Of a DNA stretch of 39,116 nt, positions 7,921 to 38,845 are shown one piece after another. Position 1 is the stretch's first letter; each line of letters begins with the position of its first letter. The notes beneath the pieces are model-generated. The model had not been told where the DNA came from, made no database searches, and was given only the letters and a program-made list of their open reading frames with translations. The position numbers and the translations under genes were made by a program. The DNA lies in contig NZ_JAQGJD010000401.1 in assembly GCF_028290785.1 (NCBI RefSeq), forward strand, positions 1-39,116, written 5' to 3'. Source of the stretch: Tardiphaga sp. Lineage in GTDB: Bacteria > Pseudomonadota > Alphaproteobacteria > Rhizobiales > Xanthobacteraceae.

Positions 7921-7997
7921 CGTAGGATGGGTTGAGCTCTTTGCGAAACCCATCGGCAGAGGGTGATGGGTTCGCAAAGAGCTCAACCCATCCTACG
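7921..7997. repeat. Palindromic repeat type A, copy 2
   Basis: The most symmetrical copy: CGTAGGATGGGTTGAGCTCT on the left, with its complement AGAGCTCAACCCATCCTACG on the right, plus the inner GCGAAACCCATC / GATGGGTTCGC arms. It lies between the convergent vanB and MFS genes and could act as a two-way terminator. Confidence 0.88.
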
Positions 7998-8011
7998 CCC
8001 GATGATCCCGT

Positions 8012-20280: not shown

Positions 20281-20314
20281 CGGCAATTCTCCTTCAAGCA
20301 TACGTCGTGAAACT

Positions 20315-22024: not shown

Positions 22025-22052
22025 ATTTTAGACTTAAAACATTTGGGCGCAA
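22025..22052 (-). promoter_or_regulatory. Promoter and operator (site 1) of the ligase operon
   Basis: Read on the minus strand: -35 TTGCGC (22052-22047), 16 bp, -10 TAAAAT (22030-22025). The palindrome TTTTA-GACT-TAAAA at 22026-22039 has perfect 5-bp arms and covers the -10, so a bound repressor would block RNA polymerase. The same layout recurs at 34980, 36885 and 38818. Confidence 0.7.
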
Positions 22053-22128
22053 CTGGCCGGGCCTGCGGCGCGTCGGATTTTTTCGATTGGGAGCCCGAAC
22101 CGCCGCGGGAAGTTTAGGCAAACGCCGC

Positions 22129-22947
22129 CTAACGCTGCGCCAGTTGCTTCAATCGCAGCGTCATCGGCGATGGCGGATCGGCCAATGGCGCAATCGCGGT
22201 AAAATGATTGGCGCCGGGGATCGGCTCGAACCGCGTCGGGATGGTAACGCTCCAGACATCGACGATGGCCTGGCTTTGCCGAAAGTACTCCGCGCTCTCG
22301 TCGCCGCCAACCACCGCGTCGAGGCTGCCGCGCGACGGCGCCGGCCAGAACAGCGGGCTGACCTCGCGGGCACTGAGATCGTTCAAATGCAACGGACTGT
22401 TGATCGAGGTCGGCACCAGCGGCCCCAGGTCGAACAGGCCGGAGATCGTATAGGCCGCACCGACCAGATCGGCGGGCAGCGTCGCGTCGAGCGCGCGCCA
22501 TTCCGTTGCCAGCATGCAGGCGGCCAAATGACCGCCGGCGGAATGGCCTGATATCACCAGCCGCCGACCGAGCCTGGCCAGCTCGCGGGTCATGTGGCGC
22601 ATCTGCTCGATGATATCGCCGACCGACACCGCCGGGCAGAGATCGTAAGAAGGTATCGCGACGCTGACGCCATGGGCGTTGAGACCGGCGGCGAGATGGC
22701 TGAAGAACGAGGAATCCAGCGCCTGCCAGTAGCCGCCATGGATGAAGACGACGATCGGGCCGCTGTCCTCGGCCGGGAAGAAATCGATGGTGTGGCGCGC
22801 GCCGGCCCCGTAAGGGATCACGCGCCAGCCCGAATGCGCCTCGCGATAGGCTTTGGCGTCGCGCGCCCAGCCGGCGATCAGCGCTGGATTCTCAGGCACC
22901 CGCGCACGGTTGTTGTACTCGACCTCGTAGTCGATCGCCGTGGTCAC
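22129..22947 (-). CDS. Alpha/beta hydrolase resembling kynurenine formamidase (arylformamidase-like)
   Basis: A 272-residue alpha/beta hydrolase. The oxyanion motif is HGGYW (70-74), the form typical of eukaryotic-type kynurenine formamidases and relatives. The nucleophile is Ser136 in GHSAGG; Asp216 (VVGGDES) and His248 (GANHF) complete a plausible triad. The usual bacterial KynB is a different metal enzyme, so this is an independent type. Known members hydrolyse aryl formamides; here a formylated anthranilate, N-formylkynurenine or an ester are possible substrates. GTG 22947 overlaps the TGA of marR (GTGA), which couples their translation. Its link to anthranilate catabolism is an inference from context: kynurenine yields anthranilate. 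Confidence 0.75.
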   Translation of the reverse strand: MTTAIDYEVEYNNRARVPENPALIAGWARDAKAYREAHSGWRVIPYGAGARHTIDFFPAEDSGPIVVFIHGGYWQALDSSFFSHLAAGLNAHGVSVAIPSYDLCPAVSVGDIIEQMRHMTRELARLGRRLVISGHSAGGHLAACMLATEWRALDATLPADLVGAAYTISGLFDLGPLVPTSINSPLHLNDLSAREVSPLFWPAPSRGSLDAVVGGDESAEYFRQSQAIVDVWSVTIPTRFEPIPGANHFTAIAPLADPPSPMTLRLKQLAQR

Positions 22948-23450
22948 AGCGCCTTGCCGTTCGCAGGCTTCTGCGCGGCCTTCTGCGCCGAGCCCTTGGT
23001 CTTGGCCAAAAGGCGCATCAACTCGCGGACATCCTTGGGCGTCAGGTCGGTAAAAATCTCGGCGATCCAGGTTTCGTGCTCTTCCGCCATCTTGCGAAAT
23101 TCGGCACGGCCGAGCTTGGTCAGCCGGATCACCTGAACCCGCCGGTCGGTATCGGACGTGCGGCGATCGACATGGCCGGATTCCACGAGGCGCTCGACCA
23201 GCCCGGTGACATTGCCGTTCGACACCATCATCCGCTTCGAGACGTCCGACAGCGTCATGCCGTCCGGCACCTTGTCGAGCTGCGCCATCAGGTCGAAGCG
23301 CGGCAACGTGACGTCGAAACGCTCGCGCAGGCGACCGCGGACCTCGCCCTCGATCAGGGTGGTACAGGTCAGGAGCCGCAGCCATAGCCGCAACTCGTCG
23401 CCGTGATCATCGGGAAGCTCGACGGCCTTGGTCTCTGAATCCAGAATCAT
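22944..23450 (-). CDS. MarR-family transcriptional regulator, probable regulator of the aromatic regulon
   Basis: A 168-residue MarR protein: dimerisation helices at both ends, and a winged helix at about 60-125, with MTLSDVSKRMMVSNGNVTGL (helix-turn-helix), LVESGHVDRR, TDRRVQVIRLT (the wing) and LGRAEFRKMAEEHETW. A Lys/Ala-rich tail follows. MarR proteins near CoA-dependent aromatic genes (BadR, CouR, HcaR and similar) are usually repressors released by the acid or its CoA thioester. ATG 23450 gives the usual length; a longer frame to 23546 would overlap the operator-like site. It is divergent from the ABC importer, and two operator-like palindromes lie in the 326-bp gap between. Control of the TTTTA-N4-TAAAA sites is inferred. 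Confidence 0.85.
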   Translation of the reverse strand: MILDSETKAVELPDDHGDELRLWLRLLTCTTLIEGEVRGRLRERFDVTLPRFDLMAQLDKVPDGMTLSDVSKRMMVSNGNVTGLVERLVESGHVDRRTSDTDRRVQVIRLTKLGRAEFRKMAEEHETWIAEIFTDLTPKDVRELMRLLAKTKGSAQKAAQKPANGKAL

Positions 23451-23466
23451 GATGCCATCATACCTG

Positions 23467-23480
23467 TCTGAGACTTCAAC
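23467..23480. promoter_or_regulatory. Weak operator-like palindrome upstream of marR (site 6)
   Basis: TCTGAGACTTCAAC keeps the GACT centre and right half TTCAA of the other sites (compare TTTTAGACTTCAAG at 36886), but the left half is degraded. It lies 17 bp before the marR ATG, a place where autorepression would act. The gap 23451-23776 holds this site and site 5, and nothing else I can assign. Confidence 0.4.
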
Positions 23481-23610
23481 GGTAGCAACGCGGACGGAAA
23501 TCCCCAACTGCATACCGCCCCGGTCGCCCGATGCTTTGACCTTCAAGGATTAATCCGGCGACTGCAAGTCAAAACGCCGCAGCCAGCCGCCTGCCGAATT
23601 CCGGATATTT

Positions 23611-23624
23611 CTTTAAGGTTCAAA
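23611..23624. promoter_or_regulatory. Operator-like palindrome upstream of the ABC importer (site 5)
   Basis: CTTTA-AGGT-TCAAA; in reverse it reads TTTGA-ACCT-TAAAG, matching the shared arms with one mismatch on each side. It lies about 150 bp before the first importer gene. I do not see a clear -35/-10 around it, unlike sites 1-4. Confidence 0.5.
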
Positions 23625-23776
23625 CAAATTGGCCTGCCCCTTGCATAGCCATTGTCGATAGTTTGCCGCAGGATAGCGATGCTTGCGGCGGCTGCCATCC
23701 TCAGAATAAGCTGAGGCGAGACACGCTGGGTTGGCGGGATTTTCGGCCGTATGAGGCGGCGGACAGAGGAGAGATC

Positions 23777-24949
23777 ATGAAGCAGCAGATCAAATTGGCC
23801 GGCCTGGCCGTCCTGATGAGCGTCGCGGCCCAGCAGGCCGCTGCGCAGGAAAAGATCAAGGTCGGCGTGATTGTATCGCTGTCCGGCGCCGGCGCCGTGC
23901 TCGGCCAGCAGGCCCGCGACGGCTTCAACCTCGCCGTCAAGGACCTCGGCGGCAAGATGGGCGGCAAGGACGTCGAAGTCATCGTGGTCGATGACGAGTT
24001 GAAGCCCGATGTCGCCGTCACCAAGGTCAAGGGGCTGCTGGAGCGCGACAAGGTCGACTTCGTGGTCGGCCCGATCTTCTCCAACATCCTCGGCGCCATC
24101 CACAAGCCGGTGATCGAGAACAAGACCTTTCTGATCTCGCCAAATGCCGGTCCGTCCAGCTTCGCCGGCAAGGAATGCAGCCCGTACTTCTATGTCACCT
24201 CGTACCAGAACGACCAGATCCACCAGATCCTCGGCAAGGTCGCGCAGGACCGCGGCTACAAGAAGGTCTACCTGCTGACGCCGAACTACCAGGCAGGCAA
24301 GGACTTCGTCGCCGGCGTCAAGATGGACTTCAAGGGCGAGATCCTGGAAGAATCCTACCTGCCGCTCGGCACCCTCGACTTCCAGGCCGAACTGTCCAAA
24401 ATCGCTTCATTGAAGCCCGATGCGGTGTTGACCTTCATGCCGGGAGGCATGGGCGTGAACCTCGTGAAACAGTACAAGCAGGCCGGCCTGCTCGACCGCA
24501 TCCCGTTCCTGTCCACCTTCACCGTCGATGAATCCACCCTGCCGGCGCAGCAGGACGCGGCACTCGGCATGTTCGGCGGCTCGAACTGGGCGCCGACCCT
24601 CGACAATCCGCAGAACAAGAAGTTCGTCTCGGAATATGAGAAGACCTACAACAGCGTGCCCGCGACCTATGCCTTCCAGTCCTATGACGCGGCGATGCTG
24701 ATCAACAGCGCGGTCGTGGCACTGAAGGGCGACCTCTCCGACAAGACCAAGGTGGCCGCGGCCATGAAGAAGGCCGACTTCACCTCGCTGCGCGGCGGCT
24801 TCAAGTTCAGCGCCAACGGCTATCCCATTCAGGACTTCTACCTGACCAAGGTCGCCAAGCGCGCCGATGGCAAGTTCCAGACCGAGATCGTGGAGAAAGT
24901 GTTCACCAACTACGCCGATCGCTACGCCGCGAGCTGCACACCGCAGTAA
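23777..24949 (+). CDS. HAAT-type ABC importer, solute-binding protein (probable aromatic acid)
   Basis: A 390-residue periplasmic protein of the Peripla_BP_6 group. A signal peptide of about 24 residues (LAGLAVLMSVAAQQAAAQ) precedes IKVGVIVSLSGAGAVLGQQA, the family's usual start. In the middle, ISPNAGPSSFAGKECSPYFY and TSYQNDQ belong to the ligand-cleft region. GAGGAGAG precedes ATG 23777. It is the first of five importer genes in the order binding protein, two permeases, two ATPases. Family members in this genomic context (for example in Rhodopseudomonas) bind benzoate-like acids; a preference for anthranilate is inferred from the neighbours. A palindromic repeat at 24992-25114 separates it from the permease. 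Confidence 0.87.
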   Translation: MKQQIKLAGLAVLMSVAAQQAAAQEKIKVGVIVSLSGAGAVLGQQARDGFNLAVKDLGGKMGGKDVEVIVVDDELKPDVAVTKVKGLLERDKVDFVVGPIFSNILGAIHKPVIENKTFLISPNAGPSSFAGKECSPYFYVTSYQNDQIHQILGKVAQDRGYKKVYLLTPNYQAGKDFVAGVKMDFKGEILEESYLPLGTLDFQAELSKIASLKPDAVLTFMPGGMGVNLVKQYKQAGLLDRIPFLSTFTVDESTLPAQQDAALGMFGGSNWAPTLDNPQNKKFVSEYEKTYNSVPATYAFQSYDAAMLINSAVVALKGDLSDKTKVAAAMKKADFTSLRGGFKFSANGYPIQDFYLTKVAKRADGKFQTEIVEKVFTNYADRYAASCTPQ

Positions 24950-24991
24950 GCGACGCGCAACGGCCATCGAATGGCGATGGCCCATCAACAT

Positions 24992-25114
24992 GTCGCCCCC
25001 GCGAAAGCGGGGACCCATAACCACCGTCGATATAGTTGAAACGGCTTGCTTACGTCTCTGCCGTTTCGGCTTCCAATTCAGCGTGTATGGGTCCCCGCTT
25101 TCGCGGGGACGACG
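24992..25114. repeat. Palindromic repeat type B, copy 1
   Basis: Left arm GTCGCCCCCGCGAAAGCGGG and right arm CCCGCTTTCGCGGGGACGAC are inverted; each arm is itself a hairpin (CCCCGCGAAAGCGGGG). The position between a binding-protein gene and its permease resembles REP elements in other importers, which protect the upstream message. A second copy is at 37465-37587. Confidence 0.88.
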
Positions 25115-25156
25115 TCTGAGAGTTCTGCGCCGCCTGCGCAAGAAAACATTGATCGC

Positions 25157-26077
25157 ATGACCCTCACCCTTGCCCTCGTCCAGATCCTGAATGGCCTGCA
25201 GTTCGGGCTGATCCTGTTTCTGATCGCCGCCGGCTTGACGCTGGTGTTCGGTGTGATGGATTTCATCAACCTGGCGCACGGCGTGCAGTACATGGTCGGC
25301 GCCTATTTCGTCGCCGCCTTCACCGCCATGACCGGCAGCTTCCTGTATGGCCTGGCGCTGGCGCTGCCCGCGGCGCTGGGGTTCGGGCTGCTGCTCGAGG
25401 TGCTGATCTTCCGGCACCTGTATGACCGCAGCCATCTCGACCAGGTGCTGGCCACCTTCGGCGTCATCATCTTTCTCAACCAGGCGGTGAAGTTCGTCTG
25501 GGGCGCCGCCCCCCTCAACGTGCCGATCCCCGACGCGCTGTCCGGCACCATCGAGATCGCCGACGGCATGCTGTATCCGGTGTATCGCCTCGTCATTATC
25601 GCCGTCGGCCTCGGCGTCGGCCTCGCGTTGTACCTCGTTGTCAACAAAACCAAACTCGGCATGCTGGTGCGCGCCGGCGCCAGCAATGCGGCCATGGTCT
25701 CCGCGCTTGGCGTCAACATCCGGCTGCTGTTCACCATCGTGTTCGGCGTCGGAGCCATGCTGGCCGGCTTTGCCGGCGCCATGGTGGCGCCGATCCTCTC
25801 GGTGGAGCCCGGCATGGGCGACAACGTGCTGATCCTGGCCTTCGTGGTGATCGTGATCGGCGGCATCGGCTCGATCCGCGGCGCCTTCATCGCCGCCCTG
25901 CTAATCGGCCTGGTCGATACGCTCGGCCGCTTCTTTGCACCGACGCTGCTCAAGTTGCTGTTGGATCCTTCCACCGCCAGCCAGACCGGCCGCGCCATTG
26001 CGCCGATGCTGATCTACATCCTGATGGCTGCGGTCTTGTTCTTCCGGCCGTCCGGCCTGTTCCCGTCGAAGCACTAG
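25157..26077 (+). CDS. HAAT-type ABC importer, permease (LivH-like)
   Basis: A 306-residue membrane protein with about eight segments. It begins LALVQILNGLQFGLILFLIA and contains GLTLVFGVMDFINLAHGVQY, the opening hallmark of LivH permeases, and FVVIVIGGIGSIRGAFIAAL, the ATPase-coupling loop (the EAA-like region). The C terminus ends FRPSGLFPSKH, as in the family. ATG 25157 is taken because the family starts just before this first membrane segment; the frame extends into the repeat upstream. It is 6 bp from the second permease gene. Confidence 0.9.
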   Translation: MTLTLALVQILNGLQFGLILFLIAAGLTLVFGVMDFINLAHGVQYMVGAYFVAAFTAMTGSFLYGLALALPAALGFGLLLEVLIFRHLYDRSHLDQVLATFGVIIFLNQAVKFVWGAAPLNVPIPDALSGTIEIADGMLYPVYRLVIIAVGLGVGLALYLVVNKTKLGMLVRAGASNAAMVSALGVNIRLLFTIVFGVGAMLAGFAGAMVAPILSVEPGMGDNVLILAFVVIVIGGIGSIRGAFIAALLIGLVDTLGRFFAPTLLKLLLDPSTASQTGRAIAPMLIYILMAAVLFFRPSGLFPSKH

Positions 26078-26083
26078 CGGGAC

Positions 26084-27073
26084 ATGGCCGTGAACGATCT
26101 CATCGACCTCAACGCTTCCCCTGCCCTCGGCGTTCCCGCGCGCGCGCGGCGCGTCGTCATCCTGCCGCTGATCATCTTTGTGCTGTTCGCTCTGGTGCCG
26201 TTGGCCGGCCTGTGGGGATCGCAGGGTTTTGTGCTCTCCATCGTCACCCGCATCATGGTGCTGGCGCTGGCCGCGATGTCGCTCGATCTCCTGATCGGCT
26301 ACGGCGCCATGATCTCGTTCGGCCATGCCGCCTTCGTCGGCCTCGGCGCCTACAGCGTCGCGATCCTGTCGAGCCACGGCATCACCGACGGTTTTGTGCA
26401 TCTCGGCGTGGCGCTGTCCGTCTCTTTCGTGTTCGCGCTCATCACCGGCGCGATCTCGCTGCGCACCAAGGGCGTCTACTTCATCATGATCACGCTGGCG
26501 TTCGGCCAGATGCTGTACTTTCTGGGCACCTCGCTCGCCGCCTATGGCGGCGACGACGGGTTGACGCTGGCGTCGCGCAGCACGCTGCTCGGCTCAAAGC
26601 TCCTGAAGAACGACGTCGTGCTGTATTACGTCGTGTTCGGCTTTCTGCTCGGTGCCTACCTGCTGCTGCGCGGCATCGTCGCCTCGCGCTTCGGCCGGGT
26701 GCTGCGCGGCATCCGCGAGAACCCGGTGCGCATGGAAGCGATCGGCTTCGCGCCGTACCGCTATCAGCTCACCGCCTATGTCATCGCCGGCATGATCGCC
26801 GCGGTGGCCGGCTGCCTGCTCGCCAACCAGACCGAATTCGTCAGCCCGGCCTATGCCAGCTGGCAGCGCTCCGGCGATCTGATCTTCGCGATCGTGCTCG
26901 GCGGCCTCGGCTCGCTGCACGGCGCGATCATCGGCGCCGCGGCGTTCAGCCTGCTGGCGGATATCTTGTCGCATTACACGGAGCATTGGGCACTGCTGTT
27001 CGGTCCGATCCTGATCCTCGTCGTGCTGTTCGCGCGCGGCGGTATCGGCGGCCTACTGGGGAGCAAGTCATGA
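26084..27073 (+). CDS. HAAT-type ABC importer, permease (LivM-like)
   Basis: A 329-residue membrane protein with 8-10 segments. Landmarks are MSLDLLIGYGAMISFGHAAF, the typical LivM opening, LRTKGVYFIMITLAFGQMLY, and SGDLIFAIVLGGLGSLHGAI, the coupling loop. Its stop codon overlaps the start of the ATPase gene (ATGA). It pairs with the LivH-like permease as a heterodimeric channel. The first 25 residues are a polar cytoplasmic extension. Confidence 0.9.
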   Translation: MAVNDLIDLNASPALGVPARARRVVILPLIIFVLFALVPLAGLWGSQGFVLSIVTRIMVLALAAMSLDLLIGYGAMISFGHAAFVGLGAYSVAILSSHGITDGFVHLGVALSVSFVFALITGAISLRTKGVYFIMITLAFGQMLYFLGTSLAAYGGDDGLTLASRSTLLGSKLLKNDVVLYYVVFGFLLGAYLLLRGIVASRFGRVLRGIRENPVRMEAIGFAPYRYQLTAYVIAGMIAAVAGCLLANQTEFVSPAYASWQRSGDLIFAIVLGGLGSLHGAIIGAAAFSLLADILSHYTEHWALLFGPILILVVLFARGGIGGLLGSKS

Positions 27074-27822
27074 GCATCGCGCCCCTGCAATTGAAGAACC
27101 TGCGCAAAAGTTACGGCGCGCTCGTCGTCACCGACGACGTTTCGTTGAACATCGAGGCCGGCGAATTGCATGCCATCATCGGGCCGAACGGCGCCGGCAA
27201 GACCACGCTGATCCACCAGATCTCCGGTCTGGCAAAATCCGACTCCGGCCGCATCATCTTCGACGGCGACGACGTGTCGAAACTGCCGATGAACGCCCGC
27301 GCCAAGCTCGGCCTGGTGCGCTCGTTCCAGATCACCTCGATCCTGCCGCGTTTCTCAGCGCTGGAGAATGTCGCGCTCGCAGTGCAGGCGCGTTCGGGCT
27401 CCAGCTTCTCGTTCTTCGGCAACGCCGCGGCGGAACCCGAGCTCAACGACATTGCGATGGCGCTGCTGGCCCGCTTCGGCCTCGCCTCGCGCGCCGACGT
27501 CCCCGCCGGCCAGATGTCGCACGGCGAAAAGCGCCAGCTCGAAATCGCCATCGCGCTCGCCGCCAAACCAAAACTGCTGCTGCTCGACGAGCCACTCGCC
27601 GGCACCAGCCATGATGAATCGCAGCGCCTCATCAACACGCTGCAGGAGCTGCGCCGCGAATTGCCTATCGTGCTGATCGAGCACGACATGGACGCCGTGT
27701 TCGCGCTGGCCGATCGCGTCTCGGTGCTGGTCTATGGCCGCATCATCGCCTCCGGCACGCCGCAGAGCATCCGCGACAACCCGGATGTGCGCGCCGCCTA
27801 TCTCGGCGAGGAGGCGCTCTGA
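27070..27822 (+). CDS. HAAT-type ABC importer, ATPase (LivG-like)
   Basis: A 250-residue ABC ATPase. Walker A GPNGAGKT (38-45), Q-loop in SFQITSILPRFSALENV, signature MSHGEKRQLEIA (the LivG form of LSGGQ), Walker B LLLLDEPLAG, and H-loop in VLIEHDMDAVF. The C-terminal VSVLVYGRIIASGTP matches the family. ATG 27070 overlaps the permease stop; its own TGA overlaps the next ATG (TGATG), so the genes are tightly coupled. Confidence 0.92.
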   Translation: MSIAPLQLKNLRKSYGALVVTDDVSLNIEAGELHAIIGPNGAGKTTLIHQISGLAKSDSGRIIFDGDDVSKLPMNARAKLGLVRSFQITSILPRFSALENVALAVQARSGSSFSFFGNAAAEPELNDIAMALLARFGLASRADVPAGQMSHGEKRQLEIAIALAAKPKLLLLDEPLAGTSHDESQRLINTLQELRRELPIVLIEHDMDAVFALADRVSVLVYGRIIASGTPQSIRDNPDVRAAYLGEEAL

Positions 27823-28520
27823 TGCTCGATGTCACCAACCTGCAGGCCGCCTACGGCGCCGCGAAAGTGCTGTTCGATATCTCGCTGAATATCGCCGCCG
27901 GCGAAGTCGTGACCCTGCTCGGCCGCAACGGCATGGGCAAGACCACCACCATCAACACCATCATGGGGCTGCTGCATCCGACCGGCGGCAGCGTTTCGTT
28001 CGACGGCCAGAAGCTCACCGGCCTGCCGTCCTACAAGATCGCCCAGGCCGGCATCGGCCTGGTGCCGGAAGGCCGCCAGATCTTTCCGACGCTCACCGTG
28101 GAGGAAAACCTGCTGGCCACCGCCGCGGTGCGCCGCCCGCCGGCGCGGTGGACGTTGACAGACATCTACGAGCTGTTTCCGCGGCTGAAGGAACGCCGCA
28201 GCAATCTCGGCACGCAGTTGTCCGGCGGCGAGCAGCAGATGCTGGCGGTCGGCCGCGCGCTGATGACCAATCCGAAACTCCTGATCCTCGATGAAGCGAC
28301 CGAGGGTCTCGCGCCCTTGATCCGGCTGGAAATCTGGAACTGCCTGAAGAAGCTCAAGGCCGAGCACCAGTCGATCCTGGTCATCGACAAGAACGTCGAT
28401 GCCCTCGCCGCGTTCGCCGACCGTCACGTCATTATCGAAAAGGGCCGCGTGGTCTGGACCGGCACCACGGCCGAACTGAAGGCCGATCCCACCATCAAGG
28501 ATCGGTTTCTGCATGTATAG
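27822..28520 (+). CDS. HAAT-type ABC importer, ATPase (LivF-like)
   Basis: A 232-residue ABC ATPase. Walker A GRNGMGKT (34-41), the LivF-specific VPEGRQIFPTLTVEENL, signature LSGGEQQMLAVGRAL, Walker B LLILDEATEGLAP. At the H-loop position the sequence is SILVIDKNVDAL, with Lys-Asn instead of a His; this replacement is common in LivF proteins, which form an asymmetric pair with LivG. It ends 162 bp before the first cupin gene, with a palindromic repeat between. Confidence 0.92.
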   Translation: MLDVTNLQAAYGAAKVLFDISLNIAAGEVVTLLGRNGMGKTTTINTIMGLLHPTGGSVSFDGQKLTGLPSYKIAQAGIGLVPEGRQIFPTLTVEENLLATAAVRRPPARWTLTDIYELFPRLKERRSNLGTQLSGGEQQMLAVGRALMTNPKLLILDEATEGLAPLIRLEIWNCLKKLKAEHQSILVIDKNVDALAAFADRHVIIEKGRVVWTGTTAELKADPTIKDRFLHV

Positions 28521-28541
28521 TTACAAACGCATACTATCTGT

Positions 28542-28643
28542 CGTCATGGCCGGGCGAACGCGAAGCTCCGCTTCGCGCGATGTCCCGGCCATCCACGATG
28601 TCACGCGCTGGCGTGGATGCCCGGCATAACGCCGGGCATGACG
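28542..28643. repeat. Palindromic repeat type C, copy 3
   Basis: It runs from CGTCATGGCCGGGCG to CGCCGGGCATGACG, with inner inverted blocks CCATCCACG and CGTGGATGCC. It separates the importer genes from the cupin gene and may reduce read-through. Confidence 0.78.
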
Positions 28644-28682
28644 GCCGAGAGAAGCGCGCTCAATTACTAAAGGGAGAACCAA

Positions 28683-29138
28683 ATGAAAACCGAAACCGCT
28701 GGCATCACGCGCGCCAACGAGGGCATGCAGGGCATTACCTGGCACATCCTCGGCCAGACCTATGTGCCGAAGACCTGCACCGAGGATTCTTTCTCGTGGC
28801 ACGCTACCTTCCCGCCCGGCACCTTCGTGCCGCCGCACATCCATCCCGACCAGGAGGAGTATCTGTACATCCTCGAGGGCAAGCTCGACTTCATGCTGGG
28901 TGGCGCCGACGCGCAGGCCACGCCGGGCGACCTGGTGCGGCTGCCGCGCGGCGTGCCGCACGGCATTTTCAACAAGTCGGACCAATCCGCCAAGGTGCTG
29001 TTCTGGGTATCGCCAACGCGCCGGCTCTACGACCTGTTCTGGGGCATCCATAACATGAAGGACCAGAACCCCGGCGACGTCGTGGCGCTGGCCGCCGAGC
29101 ACAACATCCACTTCCTGCCGCCGCCTCCGGGCGCCTGA
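28683..29138 (+). CDS. Single-domain cupin, paralogue 1
   Basis: A 151-residue cupin. Motif 1 is GTFVPPHIHPDQEEYLYILEG, here His52, His54 and Glu58; motif 2 is GDLVRLPRGVPHGIFN with His93. All four usual metal ligands are present. It shares with the gene at 36993 the positions of every ligand, the start of the fold (W-x-ILGQ) and the end (LAAEHNIHFLPPP against VSAEHEVNFLPPE). Cupins of this size may be dioxygenases, isomerases, decarboxylases or ligand sensors. AGGGAGA precedes ATG 28683. It follows the importer operon, and is likely part of the same regulon. Function is not predictable from the fold, but both copies flank the aromatic genes. Confidence 0.8.
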   Translation: MKTETAGITRANEGMQGITWHILGQTYVPKTCTEDSFSWHATFPPGTFVPPHIHPDQEEYLYILEGKLDFMLGGADAQATPGDLVRLPRGVPHGIFNKSDQSAKVLFWVSPTRRLYDLFWGIHNMKDQNPGDVVALAAEHNIHFLPPPPGA

Positions 29139-29152
29139 GCCAACACGACTGG

Positions 29153-31039: not shown

Positions 31040-31070
31040 CGAACGACACCCCATCGAGCCAAACTAACAA

Positions 31071-31087
31071 CCGCTATGCCGTAGCGG
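31071..31087. other. Short perfect inverted repeat upstream of the tannase-family gene
   Basis: CCGCTA-TGCCG-TAGCGG, 6-bp arms, located 32 bp upstream of the tannase ATG and 129 bp downstream of the flavin monooxygenase stop. It could be an operator or a weak hairpin; there is no T-run. Confidence 0.35.
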
Positions 31088-31215
31088 GCGCCGCAGGAGA
31101 TGGAGAGATCGGGGACTTTGTCAAGCGGGCCAGACGACCGCCATCTTTGCACTGCAACATGAGCGGCAGCGCAGCCAGTCGCCCAGGACGGGTCCGGTGC
31201 TCGCGCAGGCGCAGC

Positions 31216-32466
31216 CTATCCCCCCACCACCGACAATCCCGGCAGCGCCGCGAACCCCGCCTTGCTGGCGTAGCCGCGCACGATGGCTTCGCGTTGCGCG
31301 TAGCTCAGCACGTGATCGACATGGTCGAAGCCGTCCGGCGCCAGTTGCTCCACGGCGTCGATGACGCCTTCGGGGCCGCCGCGGCGGTTAGCGCGGACGA
31401 TCTCGGCGGTCATCGGCAGCCGCTTCTTCTCATAGGCCACCAACGCGTGGCGCGGATGCTCGGCATAGGCCAGCGCATCAGCCAGCGCGCGGGCATCCAG
31501 GATCGCCTGCGAGGCGCCGTTGGAGCCGACCGGATACATCGGATGCGCGGCGTCGCCGAGCAGTGTGACGCGGCCGCTCGACCAGTACGGCAGCGGATCG
31601 CGGTCGCAGCACGGATATTCCCAGAACTCCGGCGTCGCCGTGATCAAAGCGGGCACGTCGATATGCGGCACCTTGAAGCGCGCCACATGCGGCATCAGTT
31701 CGTCGCGCTTGCCGGGGCGCGACCAGTCCTCGCGGCGCGGCGGCAACGTGCCGCCTTCGCCGATCTTCACCAGCACCGCCCAGTTGGTCAGCCGGTTGCC
31801 CGGCGTCAGCCCCTCGGCGATCGGATACACCACCACCTTGGCATGCAGCCCGCCGGCGACGATCATCGAATCGCCGGTGAGGAATTTCGGCCAGTCGCGC
31901 GCGCCGCGCCACAACATCAGCCCGTTCCAGACCGGCGCGCCCTCCTCGGGAAACAGCGTGCTGCGCACTTTCGAGTGAATGCCGTCGGCGCCGATCAGAA
32001 TGTCGCCGCGGACGGTTTCCACATGCGCGCCGGAACGGTCGAAGAAGTGCGCGGTGACGCCGCCCTCGTCCTGGCTGAAGGCGCCGAGCCGGCGTCCGGT
32101 GTGGATCGCGTCCTTGCCGAGACGCGTTTCGACGGCAGCGTGAATGACGCTCTGCAGCCGGCCGCGGTGGATCGAGAATTGCGGCACGTCATGGCCGGCA
32201 CCATAGCCGCGGGTCTCGCGCCAGACTTCCTGGCCGTGGCGGTTGAGGTAGTGCAGTTCGTCGGTGCGGATCGCCACGGCATCGAGCGCATCGAGCAGGC
32301 CGAGCCCGGCGAGTTCGCGGATCGCATGCGGCAGCGTGTTGATACCGACGCCAAGTTCGCGGATCGATTCCGACTGCTCATAGAGCTCGCAGTGGATGCC
32401 CCGCGCCCGCAACATGAGTGCGGTGGTGAGCCCGCCGACGCCGCCACCCACGATGATCGCTTTCAT
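31216..32466 (-). CDS. Flavin-dependent aromatic monooxygenase (PhzS/salicylate-hydroxylase-like)
   Basis: A 416-residue class A flavoprotein monooxygenase. FAD-binding motif GGGVGG at 7-12, then ELYEQSESIRELGVGINTLP, the middle GADGIHSKVR (DG motif), and LLGDAAHPMYPVGSNGASQA (GD motif). The group includes PhzS, salicylate and 6-hydroxynicotinate hydroxylases, and uses NAD(P)H and O2 to hydroxylate an aromatic ring. ATG 32466 is the natural start, since the FAD motif follows at once; an upstream extension would run into repeat A3. It follows the fusion enzyme gene in the same direction, separated by that repeat. Its place in the pathway is unclear: it might feed in a related aromatic acid. 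Confidence 0.8.
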   Translation of the reverse strand: MKAIIVGGGVGGLTTALMLRARGIHCELYEQSESIRELGVGINTLPHAIRELAGLGLLDALDAVAIRTDELHYLNRHGQEVWRETRGYGAGHDVPQFSIHRGRLQSVIHAAVETRLGKDAIHTGRRLGAFSQDEGGVTAHFFDRSGAHVETVRGDILIGADGIHSKVRSTLFPEEGAPVWNGLMLWRGARDWPKFLTGDSMIVAGGLHAKVVVYPIAEGLTPGNRLTNWAVLVKIGEGGTLPPRREDWSRPGKRDELMPHVARFKVPHIDVPALITATPEFWEYPCCDRDPLPYWSSGRVTLLGDAAHPMYPVGSNGASQAILDARALADALAYAEHPRHALVAYEKKRLPMTAEIVRANRRGGPEGVIDAVEQLAPDGFDHVDHVLSYAQREAIVRGYASKAGFAALPGLSVVGG

Positions 32467-32492
32467 CGGTCTACTCCACTGAGAGTGATGCC

Positions 32493-32568
32493 GTAGGATG
32501 GGTTGAGCCCTTGCGAAACCCATCGACATCGGCTGATGGGTTTCGCGAAGACGCTCAACCCATCCTAC
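32493..32568. repeat. Palindromic repeat type A, copy 3
   Basis: GTAGGATGGGTTGAGCCCTT at the left and CTCAACCCATCCTAC at the right, with inner GCGAAACCCATC / GATGGGTTTCGC arms. It is 27 bp after the stop of the fusion enzyme gene. Confidence 0.88.
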
Positions 32569-32595
32569 AATCTTCCGCTAGCCTCGCATGCAGCC

Positions 32596-34947
32596 CTATT
32601 CCGCCGCAAGCGGCTTGGCCGCCTCCGCGCGCAGCTCGGCCCTCGTCTTCGGCTTAGCCTTAATTTTCAGGTCGTCGAAATCCTGCTTGTCGCGGACGCT
32701 GTTGCGGAAGATCTGCTCCTTGCCGGGCATGTATTGCGGCGGGCAATAGGCATCCTTGGCGCCGTACCAGGCCGCGGCCTTGATGGTGAAGGAGGGATCA
32801 ATCAGGTGCGGACGGCCGAGCGCCACCAGGTCGGCGCGGCCGGCGGCCAGGATGGTGTTGACCTGATCCGCACTGGTGATGTTGCCGACGCACATGGTGG
32901 CGACGCGGCCCTCGTTGCGGACCTGTTCGGAGAACGGCGTCTGAAACATGCGGCCGTAGATCGGCGATGCATCGCGCACGGTCTGGCCGGTGGAGATATC
33001 GACCAGATCGACGCCGTGCTCGGCGAAAGCGCGCGCGATCAGCACGGCATCGTCGCCGGTAACGCCGCCCTCGGCCCAGTCGGTGGCGGAAATGCGCACC
33101 GACATCGGCTTGTGGGACGGCCACGCCGCGCGCATCGCCTCGAATACTTCGAGCGGGAAGCGCAAACGGTTGTCCAGCGAGCCGCCATATTCATCGGTCC
33201 GCTGATTGGTCAGCGGCGAGATGAAGCTGGCGAGCAGGTAGCCGTGCGCCGCATGCATCTCCAGCATGTCGAAGCCGCAGGCATCGCCGCGCAGCGCCGC
33301 CGCCACGAACTCCGCCTTGACCGCATCCATCGCAATGCGGTCCATCTCACGCGGCACCTGGCTGTCCGGATAATACGGAAGCGGCGAGGCCGACAGCACG
33401 TCCCATGCGCCCTCGCTGAGCGGACGGTCCATGCCGTCCCACATCAGTTTGGTCGCGCCCTTGCGGCCGGCGTGACCGAGTTGCAGGCAGATTTTCGCCG
33501 CCGAGTTGCCGTGCACGAAATCGACGATGCGCGTCCACGCCGCCTGCTGCTCGTCGGTCCACAACCCGGCGCAGCCGGGCGTGATGCGCGCATCGCGGCC
33601 GACACAGACCATCTCGGTGAACACCAGCCCGGCGCCGCCGATCGCGCGCGAACCGTAATGCACCAGATGGAAATCGCCTGGCACGCCCTCTTTCGCGGAG
33701 TACATGCACATCGGCGATACCACGGCGCGGTTGGCCAGCACCATGTCGCGCAGTTTCAGCGGCTGGAACATCGGCGCGGCCGGCTTTTTGGTATCGACGT
33801 CGAAGCCCTTGGCCTGCACCTGCAACGCAAACGCCTTATCGACCTCCTTGACGAACTCCGGCGCACGCAAGGTGAGGTTATCATAGGTGATCGCCTTGGC
33901 GCGCGTCATGACGCCGAAGGCGAACTGCACGGGGTCGAAATCCCAGAACCGATCGACATGCTCGAACCACACCAGCGAGACATCCGCGGAGTGCTGGATC
34001 TTCTCGGTCTCCTCGCGGCGGCCATGCTCGTAATCGTTCAGCGCGGCTTCCACCGTTGGCGCCTTGGCCATCGACTCGTACAGCGCAATCGCATCTTCCA
34101 TCGCCAGCTTGGTGCCGGAGCCGATGGAGAAATGCGCGGTCGCCTTGGCGTCGCCGAGCAGCACCATGTTGTCGCGGACCCAGCGCTTGTTGCGGATCAT
34201 CGGGAAATTGCGCCACATCGAACGGTTGATCAGCAGCTTGTGGCCCTCGAGGAACCAGCCAAAAATTTCCGCCATGCGATCGGCGGATTCCTGCTCGCTC
34301 AGACCTTCCAGCCCGGCGCGCTTGAAGGTCTCCGGATCGGTCTCGAAAATCCAGGTCGAACGCCCCGCCTCGTACTGGTAGGCGTGCGCGATGAACGGAC
34401 CCCACTCGGTTTCCTCGAACAGGAAGGTGAAGGCGTCGAGCGGACGGGTCGAGCCCATCCAGGTGAACTTGTTGGAGCGCAGATCGACTTCCGGCTCGAA
34501 GTGCTCGTTGTACTTGTTGCGGAAGTGGCTGTTGATGCCGTCGGACAGCACCACCAGGTCGGCATCGGCGAACTGCGCTTCGTCGGTGATATCCACTTCA
34601 AACAGCAGCCGGCAGCCGAGTTCCCGGGCGCGCTCCTGCAGGATCATCAAGAGCGTGCGGCGCGAGCAGCCGCAAAACCCGTTACCGCCGACGCGGTGCA
34701 CGGTGCCGCGGAAATGCACGGCAATGTCGTCCCAATAGGCGAATTCCTGGGTGATACGCTGGTAGCTCGGCAGGTCGTATTTTTCGAAGTTGTCGAGGGT
34801 GGCGTCGGAGAACACCACGCCGAAGCCGAAGGTGTCGTCGGGCCGGTTGCGCTCGTAGACGGTAATATCCGCCTGCGGCCGCTGCTTCTTCAGCAGGATC
34901 GCCGAATAAAGCCCCGCAGGCCCGCCACCGATGATCGCGATCTTCAT
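32596..34947 (-). CDS. Bifunctional 2-aminobenzoyl-CoA monooxygenase/reductase (flavin monooxygenase fused to Old Yellow Enzyme)
   Basis: A 783-residue fusion. The N-terminal half (1-370) is a class A flavin monooxygenase: GGGPAG at 7-12, SDG at 135-137, [16 protein letters not shown] with the GD motif at 265-266. The C-terminal half (about 393-745) is an Old Yellow Enzyme-type reductase: SPMCMYSA at 411-418, LGHAGRKG near 490, the catalytic-pocket HAAHGY at 565-570, and [14 protein letters not shown]. In Azoarcus evansii such an enzyme hydroxylates 2-aminobenzoyl-CoA at C5 and reduces it to 2-amino-5-oxocyclohex-1-ene-carbonyl-CoA. The same architecture is often annotated as salicylyl-CoA 5-hydroxylase/oxidoreductase, so salicylyl-CoA is the alternative. 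A regulated promoter (site 2) lies 33-60 bp upstream. Confidence 0.85.
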
Positions 34948-34979
34948 GCCAGCCTCCGCAGTCGAGCTTCAACCGAGAT

Positions 34980-35007
34980 ATTTTAACCCTAAAGCAATTT
35001 CGCGCAA
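34980..35007 (-). promoter_or_regulatory. Promoter and operator (site 2) of the fusion enzyme gene
   Basis: Minus strand: -35 TTGCGC (35007-35002), 16 bp, -10 TAAAAT (34985-34980). The palindrome TTTTA-ACCC-TAAAG (34981-34994) has one arm mismatch and overlaps the -10, as at site 1. Confidence 0.68.
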
Positions 35008-35010
35008 GCC

Positions 35011-35182
35011 TGTTTGGGCGGCATGGAGTGCCGCCAACGCAGGCCCTCGTTCCCCGGACGCTGCGCACTGGCCCGCTCTTGCGGGCTGGTGCGCTGCTGA
35101 TCCGGGGTCCCGGTTTCTTGCGACAAGCCACCGGGATCCCGGATCTGCGGAGCGGCACAAGAGTGCCGCACCGCGTCCGGGA
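35011..35182. repeat. Palindromic repeat type D, copy 1
   Basis: It contains TTTGGGCGGCATGGAGTGCC, then CCCGGACGC at the left and GCGTCCGGG at the right, around GGGTCCCGGTTTCTTGCGAC and ACCGGGATCCCGGATC. Related blocks recur at 38891-39000. It separates the SDR-crotonase operon from the fusion enzyme promoter and may terminate the former. Confidence 0.7.
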
Positions 35183-35203
35183 AACGAACTTGCCTACCTT
35201 CCT

Positions 35204-36040
35204 TCAATTGCCTTCAAACTTGGGCTTCGCCTTGTTCGCAAATGCATAAAACGCCCGGGCAAAATCCTCGGTGGTCATGCACAAAGCCTGCGCCACGGCT
35301 TCCGCCTCGATCGCCTCTTCCACCGACATCGCCCATTCCATCGCCAGCATGCGCTTGGTCATGGTGTTGGCAAAGGTCGGGCCTTCGGAAATTTGTTTGG
35401 CCAGTAGCTGCGCCTGCGCCAGCACTTCGGTCGGCGCCACGACGCGGCTGAAGAAGCCCCAGCGCTCGCCCTCCTCGGCGGTCATGAAGCGGCCGGTATA
35501 GAGCAGCTCCGAGGCGCGCGACTGGCCGATGATGCGCGGCAGGATCGCGCACGCCCCCATGTCGCAGCCGGCAAGACCGACCTTGTTGAACAGGAAGCCG
35601 ACCTTGGCGCCGGTGGCGGCGATCCGCAGGTCGGACGCCATCGCCATGATCGCGCCCGCGCCGGCGCAGATGCCCTCGACCGCGGCAATCACGGGCTGCG
35701 GGCAGGCGCGCATCGCCTTGACGAGGTCGCCGGTCATCCGCGTAAACGCGGTGAGGTCCTTGGTGTTCATCTCGACCAGCGGCCCGATGATTTCGAACAC
35801 GTCGCCGCCCGACGAAAAGTTGCCGCCGGCGCCGGTGACCACGATGGTCTTGACGTCGTCGTCCATGGCGCAGGCGCGGAAGAAATCGGTGAGTTCGCGA
35901 TAACTCTGGAAGGTCAGCGGGTTCTTCCGCTCCGGCCGGTTCAGCGTGACGGTGGCGATGCCGTCTACAACTGCGAGCAGGAAATGCTGCGGCGCGTAGT
36001 CGATCAGCGGCAGCGTGACGGGATTGGCGAACTTTTGCAT
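35204..36040 (-). CDS. Crotonase-superfamily protein with both hydratase glutamates replaced; possible ring-opening hydrolase
   Basis: A 278-residue crotonase-fold protein. The CoA/oxyanion region is FSSGGD (75-80) with [18 protein letters not shown] later. In classical enoyl-CoA hydratases two Glu residues add water; here the first falls at Ile131 (GAGAIMAM against GGGCELAM) and the second in FLFNKVG, also not Glu. An Asp (160) is present in GLAGCDMGA. The protein is therefore unlikely to be a standard hydratase. BadI, a crotonase that hydrolytically opens 2-ketocyclohexanecarboxyl-CoA, is an attractive comparison given the pathway. AGGGAG precedes ATG 36040. It is 46 bp after the SDR gene in the same operon, under site 3. 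Confidence 0.78.
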
Positions 36041-36086
36041 GATAGCTCCCTGTAGCGTTTCGTTCTTGGCGCTCGATTGCGCTGGA

Positions 36087-36845
36087 TCAAATCTCGCCGC
36101 CGGCGACCGCAAGGCTCTGACCGGTGACCGCGCCGGCGCCCGGCCCGCACAGATACAATACGGCATCGGCGACTTCCGTGGGGGTCACCAGCCGGCCCTG
36201 TGGATTGTGCTTGGCGAGTTCGGCAAGCGCCTGCTCGCGGGTGCGGCCGGTCTTGCTGATGATGTTGTCAATGCTCCCTTCCAGCAGGTCGGTCTCGGTG
36301 AAGCCGGGACACACCGCATTCACCGTGACGCCCTTGGACGCTACTTCCAGCGCCAATGAGCGCACCAGTCCGATTACCGCATGTTTGGCGGCGGCGTAGG
36401 CGCTGACATAGGCATAACCTTTCAGGCCGGCGGTGGAGGCGACAGCAACGATGCGACCTTTCTTCGCCGCCACCATGCCCGGCAGCACGGCCTGCGCGGC
36501 GAACACCACGCCCAGGAAGTTGACGTTCATCATCCGCTGAAACAGCGCCGCGTCGGATTTGATGAACGGCGAGGATTCCGCGGCGCCAGCATTGGCGACG
36601 AGAATATCGATCGGCTGCCGGCCGGCTGCTTCCGCGATCGCTGCCGACAGGGCCGCTTGATCGGACACGTCGGCGGCGATGGCGTGATGCGCCTCGCCCG
36701 CGGCGATCACGTCGTTCAGCGTGTCGAGATTGCGGCCCATGATGGTGACGGTGGCGCCGGCCTTCGCCAGCGAAGCCGCGATGGCCCGGCCGATGCCGCG
36801 GCCGCCGCCGGTGACCAGCGCGTGGGAGCCTGACAAGCGGGACAT
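36087..36845 (-). CDS. Short-chain dehydrogenase/reductase, probable hydroxyacyl-CoA dehydrogenase type
   Basis: A 252-residue classical SDR. Nucleotide motif TGGGRGIG (12-19), NAG at 85-87, and catalytic Ser137, Tyr150 and Lys154 (YAAAK). Asn109 (NVNF) completes the tetrad. C-terminal AVAGGEI is the common ending of this group. In place of an acidic residue, MGRN follows the second strand, which suggests NADP(H) preference. It would oxidise or reduce a ring or chain hydroxyl/keto group of the CoA ester. It is the first gene of the operon with the crotonase. The gap to the divergent cupin 2 holds site 3. Confidence 0.82.
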
Positions 36846-36884
36846 GGGCAGTCTCCTGGAACGCGAAACGGGCCTTCCCGATAT

Positions 36885-36911
36885 ATTTTAGACTTCAAGC
36901 TTTTGCAACAA
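36885..36911 (-). promoter_or_regulatory. Promoter and operator (site 3) of the SDR-crotonase operon
   Basis: Minus strand: -10 TAAAAT (36890-36885) with TTGTTG at 36911-36906 as -35 (15 bp spacing; shifting one base gives TTTGTT and 16). The palindrome TTTTA-GACT-TCAAG (36886-36899) covers the -10. Lying in the gap shared with cupin 2, it may also affect that gene. Confidence 0.6.
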
Positions 36912-36938
36912 ACCCGCAGGTGCGGCATCTCCAGCCGC

Positions 36939-36966
36939 TTGACTCGCCATTCGCCAAAGGTAGCCT
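36939..36966 (+). promoter_or_regulatory. Candidate promoter of the second cupin gene
   Basis: TTGACT (36939-36944), 16 bp, TAGCCT (36961-36966), giving a leader of about 20 bases to ATG 36993. The -35 matches well, the -10 poorly. Confidence 0.4.
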
Positions 36967-36992
36967 TCGACCTTCAATGTGAGGATAGACAG

Positions 36993-37442
36993 ATGGCAGC
37001 GCTCGAAAAAGGCATCACGCAGGTCGGCACCGGCTATGGCGGCACCAGCTGGAATATTCTTGGCCAGGTGTATTTCCCCAAGGCGGTGACCGACTCCACC
37101 TTTGCCTTCGAGACCAACAGTGATCCCGGCCAGTTCGTGCCCGTGCATGTGCATCCTACCCAGGAAGAGTTCATCCTGGTGCAGGAAGGCACGCTGGATC
37201 TGAAGCTCGACGGCGAGTGGGTCAAGGCCCATGCCGGCGATCTCGTCCGCCTGCCGCGCGGCATTCCGCACGGCTACTTCAACAAGTCCGACAAGCCGGC
37301 GCGGGCGCTGTTCTGGGTATCGCCGACGGCGAAACTGGAGGCCTTGTTCAAGCAATTGCATAATATGACGGATATCGAAGCGATCGTGCGCGTTTCGGCA
37401 GAACACGAAGTGAATTTCCTGCCGCCGGAAGCGAACGAGTAA
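36993..37442 (+). CDS. Single-domain cupin, paralogue 2
   Basis: A 149-residue cupin with the same metal-ligand positions as the gene at 28683: His52, His54, Glu58 (VHVHPTQEE) and His93 (GDLVRLPRGIPHGYFN). Its N terminus is MAALEKGITQ, followed by the shared W-x-ILGQ-V/T-Y stretch; a shared FWVSPT follows motif 2. GAGG lies eight bases before ATG 36993. It is divergent from the SDR-crotonase operon and convergent with the acyl-CoA dehydrogenase gene. The metal site argues for an enzymatic or ligand-binding role on a pathway intermediate, but no reaction can be named from sequence. Confidence 0.8.
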   Translation: MAALEKGITQVGTGYGGTSWNILGQVYFPKAVTDSTFAFETNSDPGQFVPVHVHPTQEEFILVQEGTLDLKLDGEWVKAHAGDLVRLPRGIPHGYFNKSDKPARALFWVSPTAKLEALFKQLHNMTDIEAIVRVSAEHEVNFLPPEANE

Positions 37443-37464
37443 TCTGGTTACTGGAACCTCTCCT

Positions 37465-37587
37465 CGTCGTCCCCGCGAAAGCGGGGACCCGTACACGCTG
37501 GTGAACTCGCGCGGCGCTATAATCGTGGCTCTGCCGCTTTAATTGTGCCGACCGAGGTTATGGATCCCCGCTATCGCGGGGACGACG
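37465..37587. repeat. Palindromic repeat type B, copy 2
   Basis: Left CGTCGTCCCCGCGAAAGCGG and right CCCCGCTATCGCGGGGACGACG are inverted, each arm a hairpin. It lies between the convergent cupin 2 and acyl-CoA dehydrogenase genes and may end both transcripts. Confidence 0.88.
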
Positions 37588-37607
37588 TCGGATAGGCCTG
37601 AGGCGGA

Positions 37608-38786
37608 CTACTTCGCTCCAGCCTGCGCGGTCTTGATCAGTTCGCGGCCGATGATCACCTTCTGCACTTCGGTCGCGCCTTCATAGATCCGCAGCGCGCG
37701 GATCTCGCGGTACAGTTCCTCCACCTTGACGCCGGACTGCACGCCCATGCCGCCAAAAATCTGCACGGCGCGGTCGATCACTTTTTGCGCGGCTTCGGTG
37801 GCGAACATTTTGGCCATCGCGGCTTCGCGCGTGATGCGCGGCGCGCCCTGGTCCTTGGTCCAGGCCGAGCGGTAGATCAGCAATGCCGATGCATCGATGT
37901 CGGTCGCCATCTCGGCGAGCCCGGCCTGCGTGAGCTGCAGGTCGCCGAGCGTATGGCCGAACATTTTTCGCGTCGCCGAGCGATGGATCGCCTCGTCGAG
38001 CGCGCGGCGGCCGAGCCCCAGCGCGGCGGCGCCGACCGTCGAGCGAAACACGTCGAGCGTGGCCATCGCCACCTTGAAACCTTCGCCGTCGCGGCCGATG
38101 CGGTTGGCGACCGGCACGCGACAATCCTCGAATTTCAGCGTCGCCAGCGGATGCGGCGCGATCACATCGATGCGCTCGGCGATCGTGAGGCCCGGCGTAT
38201 CGGCATCGACCACGAAGGCGCTGATGCCGCGGGCGCCGCCCTCGCCGGTGCGCACGAACACCACGTAGTGGTCGGCGATACCGCCGTTGGAAATCCAGGT
38301 CTTGGCTCCGTTGATGCGGACGTGGTCGTTACCATCCGGCACCGCGCTCGTCGTCATCGCCGCGACGTCGGAGCCGGCATCGGTCTCGGACAATGCGAAG
38401 GCCGCAATGGCTTCGCCGCGGGCCACGCGCGGCAGATAGCGCGCCTTCATCTCTTCCGAACCGAACAGGCTGATCGGCCCGGTGCCCAGTCCCTGCATCG
38501 CAAACGCAAAATCCGCGAGCCCGCTGACATAGGCCAGCGTCTCGCGCACCAGGCACAGCGCGCGCACGTCGAAATTCGGATACAGCCCGCCATGGCTGGC
38601 CGGCACCGCGACGCGCAGCCAGCCGGCGTCGCCGAGCGCGCGCACCAGCCGCTTGCAGGAGCCATCGGTGTCGTGGTGATCGATGAGGTCAGGCACATTC
38701 GCCGCCGCCCATTGCGACAGCTCCGCGGACAGCTTGCGGTGATGATCGTCAAAAAACGGCCACGACAAAAACGATTGATCGGACAT
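37608..38786 (-). CDS. Acyl-CoA dehydrogenase
   Basis: A 392-residue acyl-CoA dehydrogenase. The FAD/substrate loop is [11 protein letters not shown], then [15 protein letters not shown], the middle-domain signature; the C-terminal helical domain includes [15 protein letters not shown] and [11 protein letters not shown], and the base is Glu369 in [10 protein letters not shown]. It would make a 2,3-enoyl-CoA from a saturated CoA ester, passing electrons to ETF. As this is the only such enzyme in the window and it shares the operator with the ligase and fusion enzyme, I place it after ring opening. ATG 38786; the promoter (site 4) is 32-59 bp upstream. Confidence 0.88.
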
Positions 38787-38817
38787 GGTGGGTTTTCCTG
38801 CGTTCCGGCAACAAGAT

Positions 38818-38845
38818 GTTTTAAACCTAAAATGATTGCGGGCAA
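38818..38845 (-). promoter_or_regulatory. Promoter and operator (site 4) of the acyl-CoA dehydrogenase gene
   Basis: Minus strand: -35 TTGCCC (38845-38840), 16 bp, -10 TAAAAC (38823-38818). The palindrome TTTTA-AACC-TAAAA (38819-38832) has perfect 5-bp arms and covers the -10. Confidence 0.7.

Follow-up and report, generated by a model that had tools for sequence, protein, structure and literature searches.

A conserved palindrome as the predicted operator of a MarR-family regulator in an aromatic-CoA gene island of Tardiphaga

Introduction

MarR-family repressors of aromatic catabolism have been described for CouR of Rhodopseudomonas palustris and Rhodococcus jostii and for FerC of Sphingobium SYK-6, which are released by hydroxycinnamoyl-CoA, and other MarR proteins respond to the free acid (accessible part of PMC5487221). 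In Bradyrhizobium japonicum, the auxin breakdown under IadR/MarR ends in anthranilate, as given in the accessible parts of PMC11630574 and PMC9613470. Here we have analysed contig NZ_JAQGJD010000401.1 (C256 in our numbering) of the 5.28-Mb draft genome of Tardiphaga sp., a stretch of 39,116 nucleotides called the window below, in which a 14-bp palindrome recurs before genes of an aromatic-CoA pathway and near the gene of a MarR-family regulator of 168 aa (22944..23450, minus strand). The comparison of relatives strongly supports the prediction that this MarR protein, very probably a repressor, has the palindrome as its operator, and that the sites mark one aromatic-CoA regulon. Its release would be brought about by an aromatic compound, with 2-aminobenzoyl-CoA or anthranilate as the likeliest inducers.

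The resemblance to CouR and FerC lies in the MarR family, the operator DNA, and a catabolic pathway running through CoA thioesters. The pathway itself is another one, the release by a CoA ester is a property of CouR and FerC, and the window MarR is likened to them by description, not by sequence. Overall, a MarR repressor on operators overlapping the -10 box would be an ordinary kind of control with notable evolutionary depth, and we regard it as a well-supported prediction. It provides a concrete, testable operator and regulon for one route of anthranilate degradation in Bradyrhizobium-type bacteria; anthranilate arises when tryptophan and auxin are broken down.

Results and Discussion

Predicted operators and promoters in the window

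All five 14-mers quoted in the original prediction are found at the coordinates given for them. Four strong palindromes precede start codons of minus-strand genes, as had been claimed, with their ends 32–46 bp upstream (33–47 bp in the earlier figure). Predicted operator O1 (TTTTAGACTTAAAA, 22026..22039) ends 46 bp before the start (21979) of an aryl-CoA ligase gene, probably for an anthranilate-CoA ligase (20315..21979; TIGR02262 371.5 bits, just below the cut-off of 375.25). O4 (TTTTAACCCTAAAG, 34981..34994) ends 33 bp before the start (34947) of the gene for a two-domain flavoenzyme (32596..34947; NF006101 1123 bits, cut-off 1078), in which a FAD monooxygenase and an old-yellow-enzyme reductase (Pfam FAD_binding_3 and Oxidored_FMN) are joined within one 783-aa protein, hereafter the monooxygenase/reductase. 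O5 (TTTTAGACTTCAAG, 36886..36899) ends 40 bp before the start (36845) of an SDR-family dehydrogenase gene (36087..36845; Pfam adh_short), the first of a pair with an enoyl-CoA hydratase (ECH) gene (35204..36040, minus strand; PRK08258 464 bits, cut-off 330). O6 (TTTTAAACCTAAAA, 38819..38832) ends 32 bp before the start (38786) of an acyl-CoA dehydrogenase gene (37608..38786; Pfam Acyl-CoA_dh domains).

Two more predicted operators lie in the gap between the divergent marR and importer genes. O3 (CTTTAAGGTTCAAA, 23611..23624), the weaker site of the original prediction, stands 152 bp from the importer operon and 160 bp from marR. O2 (CTTTGACCTTCAAG, 23534..23547), which had been missed, agrees with the palindrome at 13/14 positions and lies 83 bp before marR. 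The degraded site at 23467 that had been assigned to marR scores 12/14, and was dropped for O2.

The promoters proposed earlier are borne out by direct reading: each strong site overlaps a promoter of the form TTGCG/TTGCC, 16 bp, TAAAAT/C, with 15–16 bp at the third. In plus-strand letters, the -35 and -10 boxes are GCGCAA (22047–22052) and ATTTTA (22025–22030) at O1, GCGCAA (35002–35007) and ATTTTA (34980–34985) at O4, CAACAA (36906–36911) and ATTTTA (36885–36890) at O5, and GGGCAA (38840–38845) and GTTTTA (38818–38823) at O6; the spacer is 16 bp in each case, except at O5, where it is 15 or 16 bp. A scan with the E. coli sigma-70 model called none of these promoters (3 hits found in all vs 2.9 expected). 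The assignment is supported by the relatives, since at their ligase and monooxygenase promoters the TTGCG is kept at a constant distance upstream of the site, with TAAAAT at its right half and a spacer of 16 bp.

This fixed geometry could suggest that the 14-mers are nothing but the conserved -10 and spacer parts of related operons, as the right half overlaps TAAAAT. However, the left half lies inside the spacer and is conserved about equally to the right half, and the dyad is also present in the marR–importer gap and in distant clades without a conserved TTGCG, so that we consider this explanation extremely improbable. The A/T flanks outside the 14-mer are symmetric and conserved as well, and the commonest form in distant relatives, about TTTTAAGCTTAAAA, stands inside a longer A/T-rich dyad.

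An operator for a MarR dimer interleaved with the promoter in this manner would allow repression by occlusion of the -10 box and the spacer, and the aromatic inducer, on releasing MarR, would let the operator-bearing units be expressed. An activating or dual role of MarR is unlikely in our view. It would find some room where the site is placed by its distance to the start rather than to a promoter, namely at the importer and among distant clades (median distance 65 bp), but at the four window promoters the site overlaps the -10 box and the spacer, a position that fits repression by the rule given in the accessible part of PMC5487221. For the claim that the local MarR represses all these units, the link between operator and regulator is strongly supported by comparison, and repression is suggested by the overlap with the -10 box and spacer.

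Conservation in relatives and co-occurrence with the pathway enzyme

We have compared upstream regions in the best 80 of 390 relatives of the window MarR, in most of which the cluster is syntenic; the MarR proteins of six genomes named Tardiphaga are 95–98% identical to it. A site was counted if it matched at least 13/14 positions within 200 bp of a start extrapolated from the alignment, and cases with the gene missing, a late-starting alignment, too little flank, or an identity below the limits were dropped. Under this rule, a site precedes the ligase gene in 27/27 relatives (at least 75% identity) and in 46/46 cases with ligases of 50–57% identity, the monooxygenase/reductase gene in 52 of 56 named orthologues, and the SDR gene in 46/47. 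It is found near the importer gene in 76/78 and near marR in 79/80 named relatives, two counts whose windows overlap and are not independent; the gap between the two genes carries two sites in 45 of the 78 relatives and one in 33. The acyl-CoA dehydrogenase, with 0 rows in this set, stands outside the counts. The control genes are clean: no site of at least 13/14 was found before ECH (0/48), cupin (0/74), hydrolase (0/43), the FAD monooxygenase (FMO) that follows the monooxygenase/reductase (0/71), or RidA (0/64), although for the last two the extrapolated triplet is often not a start codon, which may displace their windows by some tens of bases.

A relative of MarR was found at E <= 1e-20 in 76 of 149 genomes of the family, and the monooxygenase/reductase at E <= 1e-150 in 74 of the 149. 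Both occur together in 73 genomes, MarR alone in 3, the enzyme alone in 1, and neither in 72 (Fisher p ~1e-37, kinship not corrected for). A MarR relative lies inside the examined stretch in 52 of the 74 enzyme loci. A site precedes the enzyme gene in 59/74 upstreams, vs a mean of 1.4 and a maximum of 5 in sequences resampled with a first-order Markov chain and 1/74 for gene interiors; by enzyme identity class the proportions are 15/16, 24/29, and 20/29. When dyads were counted in 58 non-redundant upstreams, with no motif presumed, TTTAAG-CTTAAA came out on top (11 occurrences vs at most 2 in 100 resamplings).

Persistence of the operator under gene exchange and outside the family

Seven Bradyrhizobium loci carry the same cluster with a monooxygenase and a ligase only 50–53% identical to those of the window (these ligases are also counted among the 46 above). 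All 14 upstreams examined there hold a 13/14 site, which is TTTTAAGTATAAAA in 13 cases and a variant in one. The predicted operator persists even though the gene downstream belongs to a different type.

Outside the family, eight alphaproteobacterial plasmid loci (Rhizobiaceae, Phyllobacteriaceae, Rhodobacterales) were chosen from the search matches. The MarR gene stands directly before the monooxygenase/reductase gene in Sinorhizobium, Aminobacter, Mesorhizobium, Shinella, and two Ensifer, and two genes after it in Ruegeria and Paracoccus. All eight, each with a MarR nearby, show a best score of 12–13 before the enzyme: 12 in Sinorhizobium, and 13 in Aminobacter, Mesorhizobium, Shinella, both Ensifer, Ruegeria, and Paracoccus. 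A 13/14 site also precedes an AMP-ligase gene by 210 bp in Sinorhizobium and by 120 bp in Mesorhizobium. In the 12-kb stretch from Arthrobacter pAL1, where a PaaX-type gene and no marR is annotated, the best score is 11. Overall, many soil and plant-associated bacteria carry the palindrome next to these genes.

Taken together, the operator reading is preferred because of the position-specific conservation with clean control genes, the co-occurrence of MarR and enzyme, the survival of the site across gene types, and the putative recognition helix common to the MarR groups (see below).

Genome-wide counts and extent of the island

The exact pattern TTTTANACYTNAAR has 4 matches in the 5.28 Mb, 3 of them in the window (reversed control 0). 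The degenerate pattern YTTKARNNYTMAAR has 11 (reversed control 6), of which 5 lie in the window, 3 on a 24-kb contig (C414), and 3 elsewhere. As both patterns were derived from the window sites, the counts inside the window carry some circularity, which does not affect the C414 sites or the relatives. The two contigs make up 1.2% of the genome and hold 8/11 degenerate matches (chance ~1e-13, though five of these defined the pattern), and C414, with 0.46% of the genome, holds 3 of the 6 matches outside the window (chance ~2e-6).

The C414 matches, at 1295, 8580, and 16400, are predicted operators among genes for a hydrolase, an acyl-CoA-dehydrogenase-like protein, an AMP ligase, an octopine-dehydrogenase-like protein, a 3-hydroxyacyl-CoA dehydrogenase, a malonyl-CoA decarboxylase, a cyclase-family protein, an amidohydrolase, and an ABC importer. 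Since C414 genes adjoin window genes in sister genomes, C414 appears to be the rightward continuation of the window island: the dehydrogenase-like gene lies ~17 kb from marR in six of them (G066, G140, G124, G107, G026, G088). In the two-contig assembly G066, the order is the C414 operon (hydrolase, dehydrogenase-like, AMP ligase, octopine-dehydrogenase-like, 3-hydroxyacyl-CoA dehydrogenase), two operators, acyl-CoA dehydrogenase, cupin, SDR, ECH, monooxygenase/reductase, FMO, importer, marR, hydrolase, ligase, and RidA. The counterpart of O6 faces the second of these operators 122 bp away, which would serve the divergent C414-type operon. In G066, 7 of 11 pattern matches fall inside the 26 kb holding marR, and in the 7.6-Mb genome G159, 8/14 fall inside 28.5 kb holding the C414-type dehydrogenase gene. 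The regulon, described before as scattered, would therefore be one contiguous island running beyond the window, and missing pathway members, such as the C414 operons, can be sought through the operator. C414 begins with what we take to be a transposase-like gene, which may explain the contig break.

C414 also encodes a flavin reductase fused to a MarR domain (L030:8631-9626). With three sites on the same contig, this protein is a candidate for another regulator binding the palindrome in place of the local MarR, yet we consider this quite improbable. The G066 island stretch of 35 kb contains the sites but no match to the fusion gene (nor to the decarboxylase, cyclase, and amidohydrolase genes of mid-C414), and the 12-kb stretches from Paracoccus and Ruegeria have no annotated regulator other than the MarR. 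The fused domain also lacks the NGNVTG helix of the local MarR, and the protein shows similarity to the p-hydroxyphenylacetate hydroxylase reductase family (NF045919), with 184 bits, short of the cut-off of 340. A further C414 reading frame (7462-8637), considered as a LysR gene, has no Pfam match, and that name was dropped.

In other parts of the genome, the match C232:1367 was set aside as a CIRCE-like element, presumably one before groES-groEL. The palindromes C61:10077 (L020) and C164:7773 (L006) lie within blocks conserved in the sister genomes compared (3 and 1, respectively), and they are possibly further regulon members or sites of another regulator. The former precedes what we take to be an efflux membrane-fusion gene.

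Pathway and probable substrate

Anthranilate, via 2-aminobenzoyl-CoA, is the likeliest substrate of the predicted pathway, for three reasons. First, both the ligase and the monooxygenase/reductase are 51% identical to their homologues encoded side by side on Arthrobacter pAL1, and anthranilate-CoA ligase activity was measured for that ligase (accessible part of PMC3534580; the published gene tags were matched to RefSeq tags by adjacency). Second, the aerobic 2-aminobenzoate pathway of Azoarcus evansii (Schuhle et al. 2001, as reviewed in the accessible part of PMC4539516) has the same steps, namely an aminobenzoate-CoA ligase, a monooxygenase/reductase, and beta-oxidation. Third, a kynureninase gene lies within 5 kb of the Aminobacter marR, and in Ruegeria the unit divergent from the monooxygenase gene contains one for a tryptophan 2,3-dioxygenase.

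On the other hand, the database name of the 32596-34947 enzyme, assigned above the curated NCBIfam cut-off, is salicylyl-CoA 5-hydroxylase/oxidoreductase, which would point to a pathway for salicylate via salicylyl-CoA. We find this fairly unlikely in view of the reductase domain, the beta-oxidation genes alongside (ECH, SDR, acyl-CoA dehydrogenase), the kynureninase and dioxygenase neighbours, and the ligase identity just given. The enzyme is therefore read here as a 2-aminobenzoyl-CoA monooxygenase/reductase, and the curated name may misname such enzymes in many genomes. The regulator–operator pair could be put to use in sensing anthranilate or the CoA ester of this acid.

The MarR regulator

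The MarR domain scores above the curated cut-offs (PF12802 47.9 bits, cut-off 27; PF01047 37.3 bits, cut-off 24.6). Within the window's group, predicted palindromic sites are found both at the target promoters and at the regulator's own gene, the pattern expected of the family. The stretch VSNGNVTGLVERL (NGNVTG), whose position we take to be that of the recognition helix of the MarR fold, recurs, slightly altered, in both the close and the distant groups of MarR. Ruegeria has it as well (VSNGNVTGIIERL), and variants occur in Paracoccus (VSNGNATAVVDRL) and Sinorhizobium (VSPGNITVLVERL). The closest solved sequence is the MarR-family structure 3boq (E 3.6e-22), with a TNGNVSG helix. The IadR/MarR of Bradyrhizobium japonicum (7KYM) is likewise a MarR regulator and comes from a similar host, but by pairwise match rather than by a tree its kinship is weak (E 0.001, 22.5 bits). 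We have found no description of this operator and MarR in the literature searched, which reached few subscription papers.

Several observations weigh against the operator and pathway assigned here. The conservation among the 80 close relatives partly reflects shared ancestry, and 15 of the 74 family upstreams have no site of at least 13/14. O3 is distant from both starts, and the mechanism there may differ. In the six Rhizobiaceae/Phyllobacteriaceae plasmid loci there is no good site before marR itself (best 10–12). The database name of the key enzyme refers to salicylyl-CoA instead of aminobenzoyl-CoA. As for the counts, the degenerate pattern is concentrated on two contigs as described, but loose matching with 2 mismatches gives no genome-wide enrichment (89 vs 240 in the reversed control). 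In 22 genomes with a MarR 82–100% identical, the pattern count is 116 vs 53 reversed, but there is no excess with MarR identities of 54–70% (71 vs 81) or 31–55% (15 vs 22), and the count was discarded as a marker for these more distant groups. In genomes without the MarR the baseline is lower still (35 vs 111).

As a tentative extension, which we hold to be possible with the balance somewhat on the doubtful side, the MarR subfamily with NGNVTG and an operator near TTTTAAGCTTRAAA might be an ancient dedicated 2-aminobenzoyl-CoA sensor in Alphaproteobacteria. Sensor and operator would have stayed together when the ligase and the monooxygenase under their control were exchanged, and would join tryptophan or auxin breakdown to anthranilate dearomatisation.

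A second marR copy was seen in Bradyrhizobium sp. Ghvi (L078); it has neither the catabolic cluster beside it nor an upstream site scoring 13 or more.

Other genes of the island

The ligase operon probably ends with a gene for a RidA-family protein (19822..20301, minus strand; TIGR00004 58.1 bits, below the cut-off of 106.25). Downstream of marR, an alpha/beta hydrolase is encoded (22129..22947, minus strand; Pfam Abhydrolase_6/_3), which reaches 205.8 bits against the HaHSL hormone-sensitive-lipase family, below the cut-off of 320. The monooxygenase/reductase gene is followed by the FMO gene (31216..32529, minus strand), of the PRK07538 subfamily (575 bits, cut-off 400).

The importer operon is on the plus strand. 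It begins with a substrate-binding protein of UrtA/LivK type (23777..24949, ATG start; TIGR03407 114 bits, below the cut-off of 492.75), followed by two permeases (25046-26077 and 26084-27073) and an ATPase (27822-28520), which are UrtB/UrtC/UrtE-like and all below the family cut-offs. The family search gave no identification for the stretch of about 27074-27822 between permease and ATPase. At the operon end lies a cupin gene (28683..29138; WbuC family, below cut-off), whose homologue adjoins the binding-protein gene in relatives. At loci L042-L111, the importer permeases and ATPase were not detected at the identity limits used, and wherever both genes are seen, that of the binding protein adjoins the cupin gene, as would an orphan binding protein under the same predicted operator.

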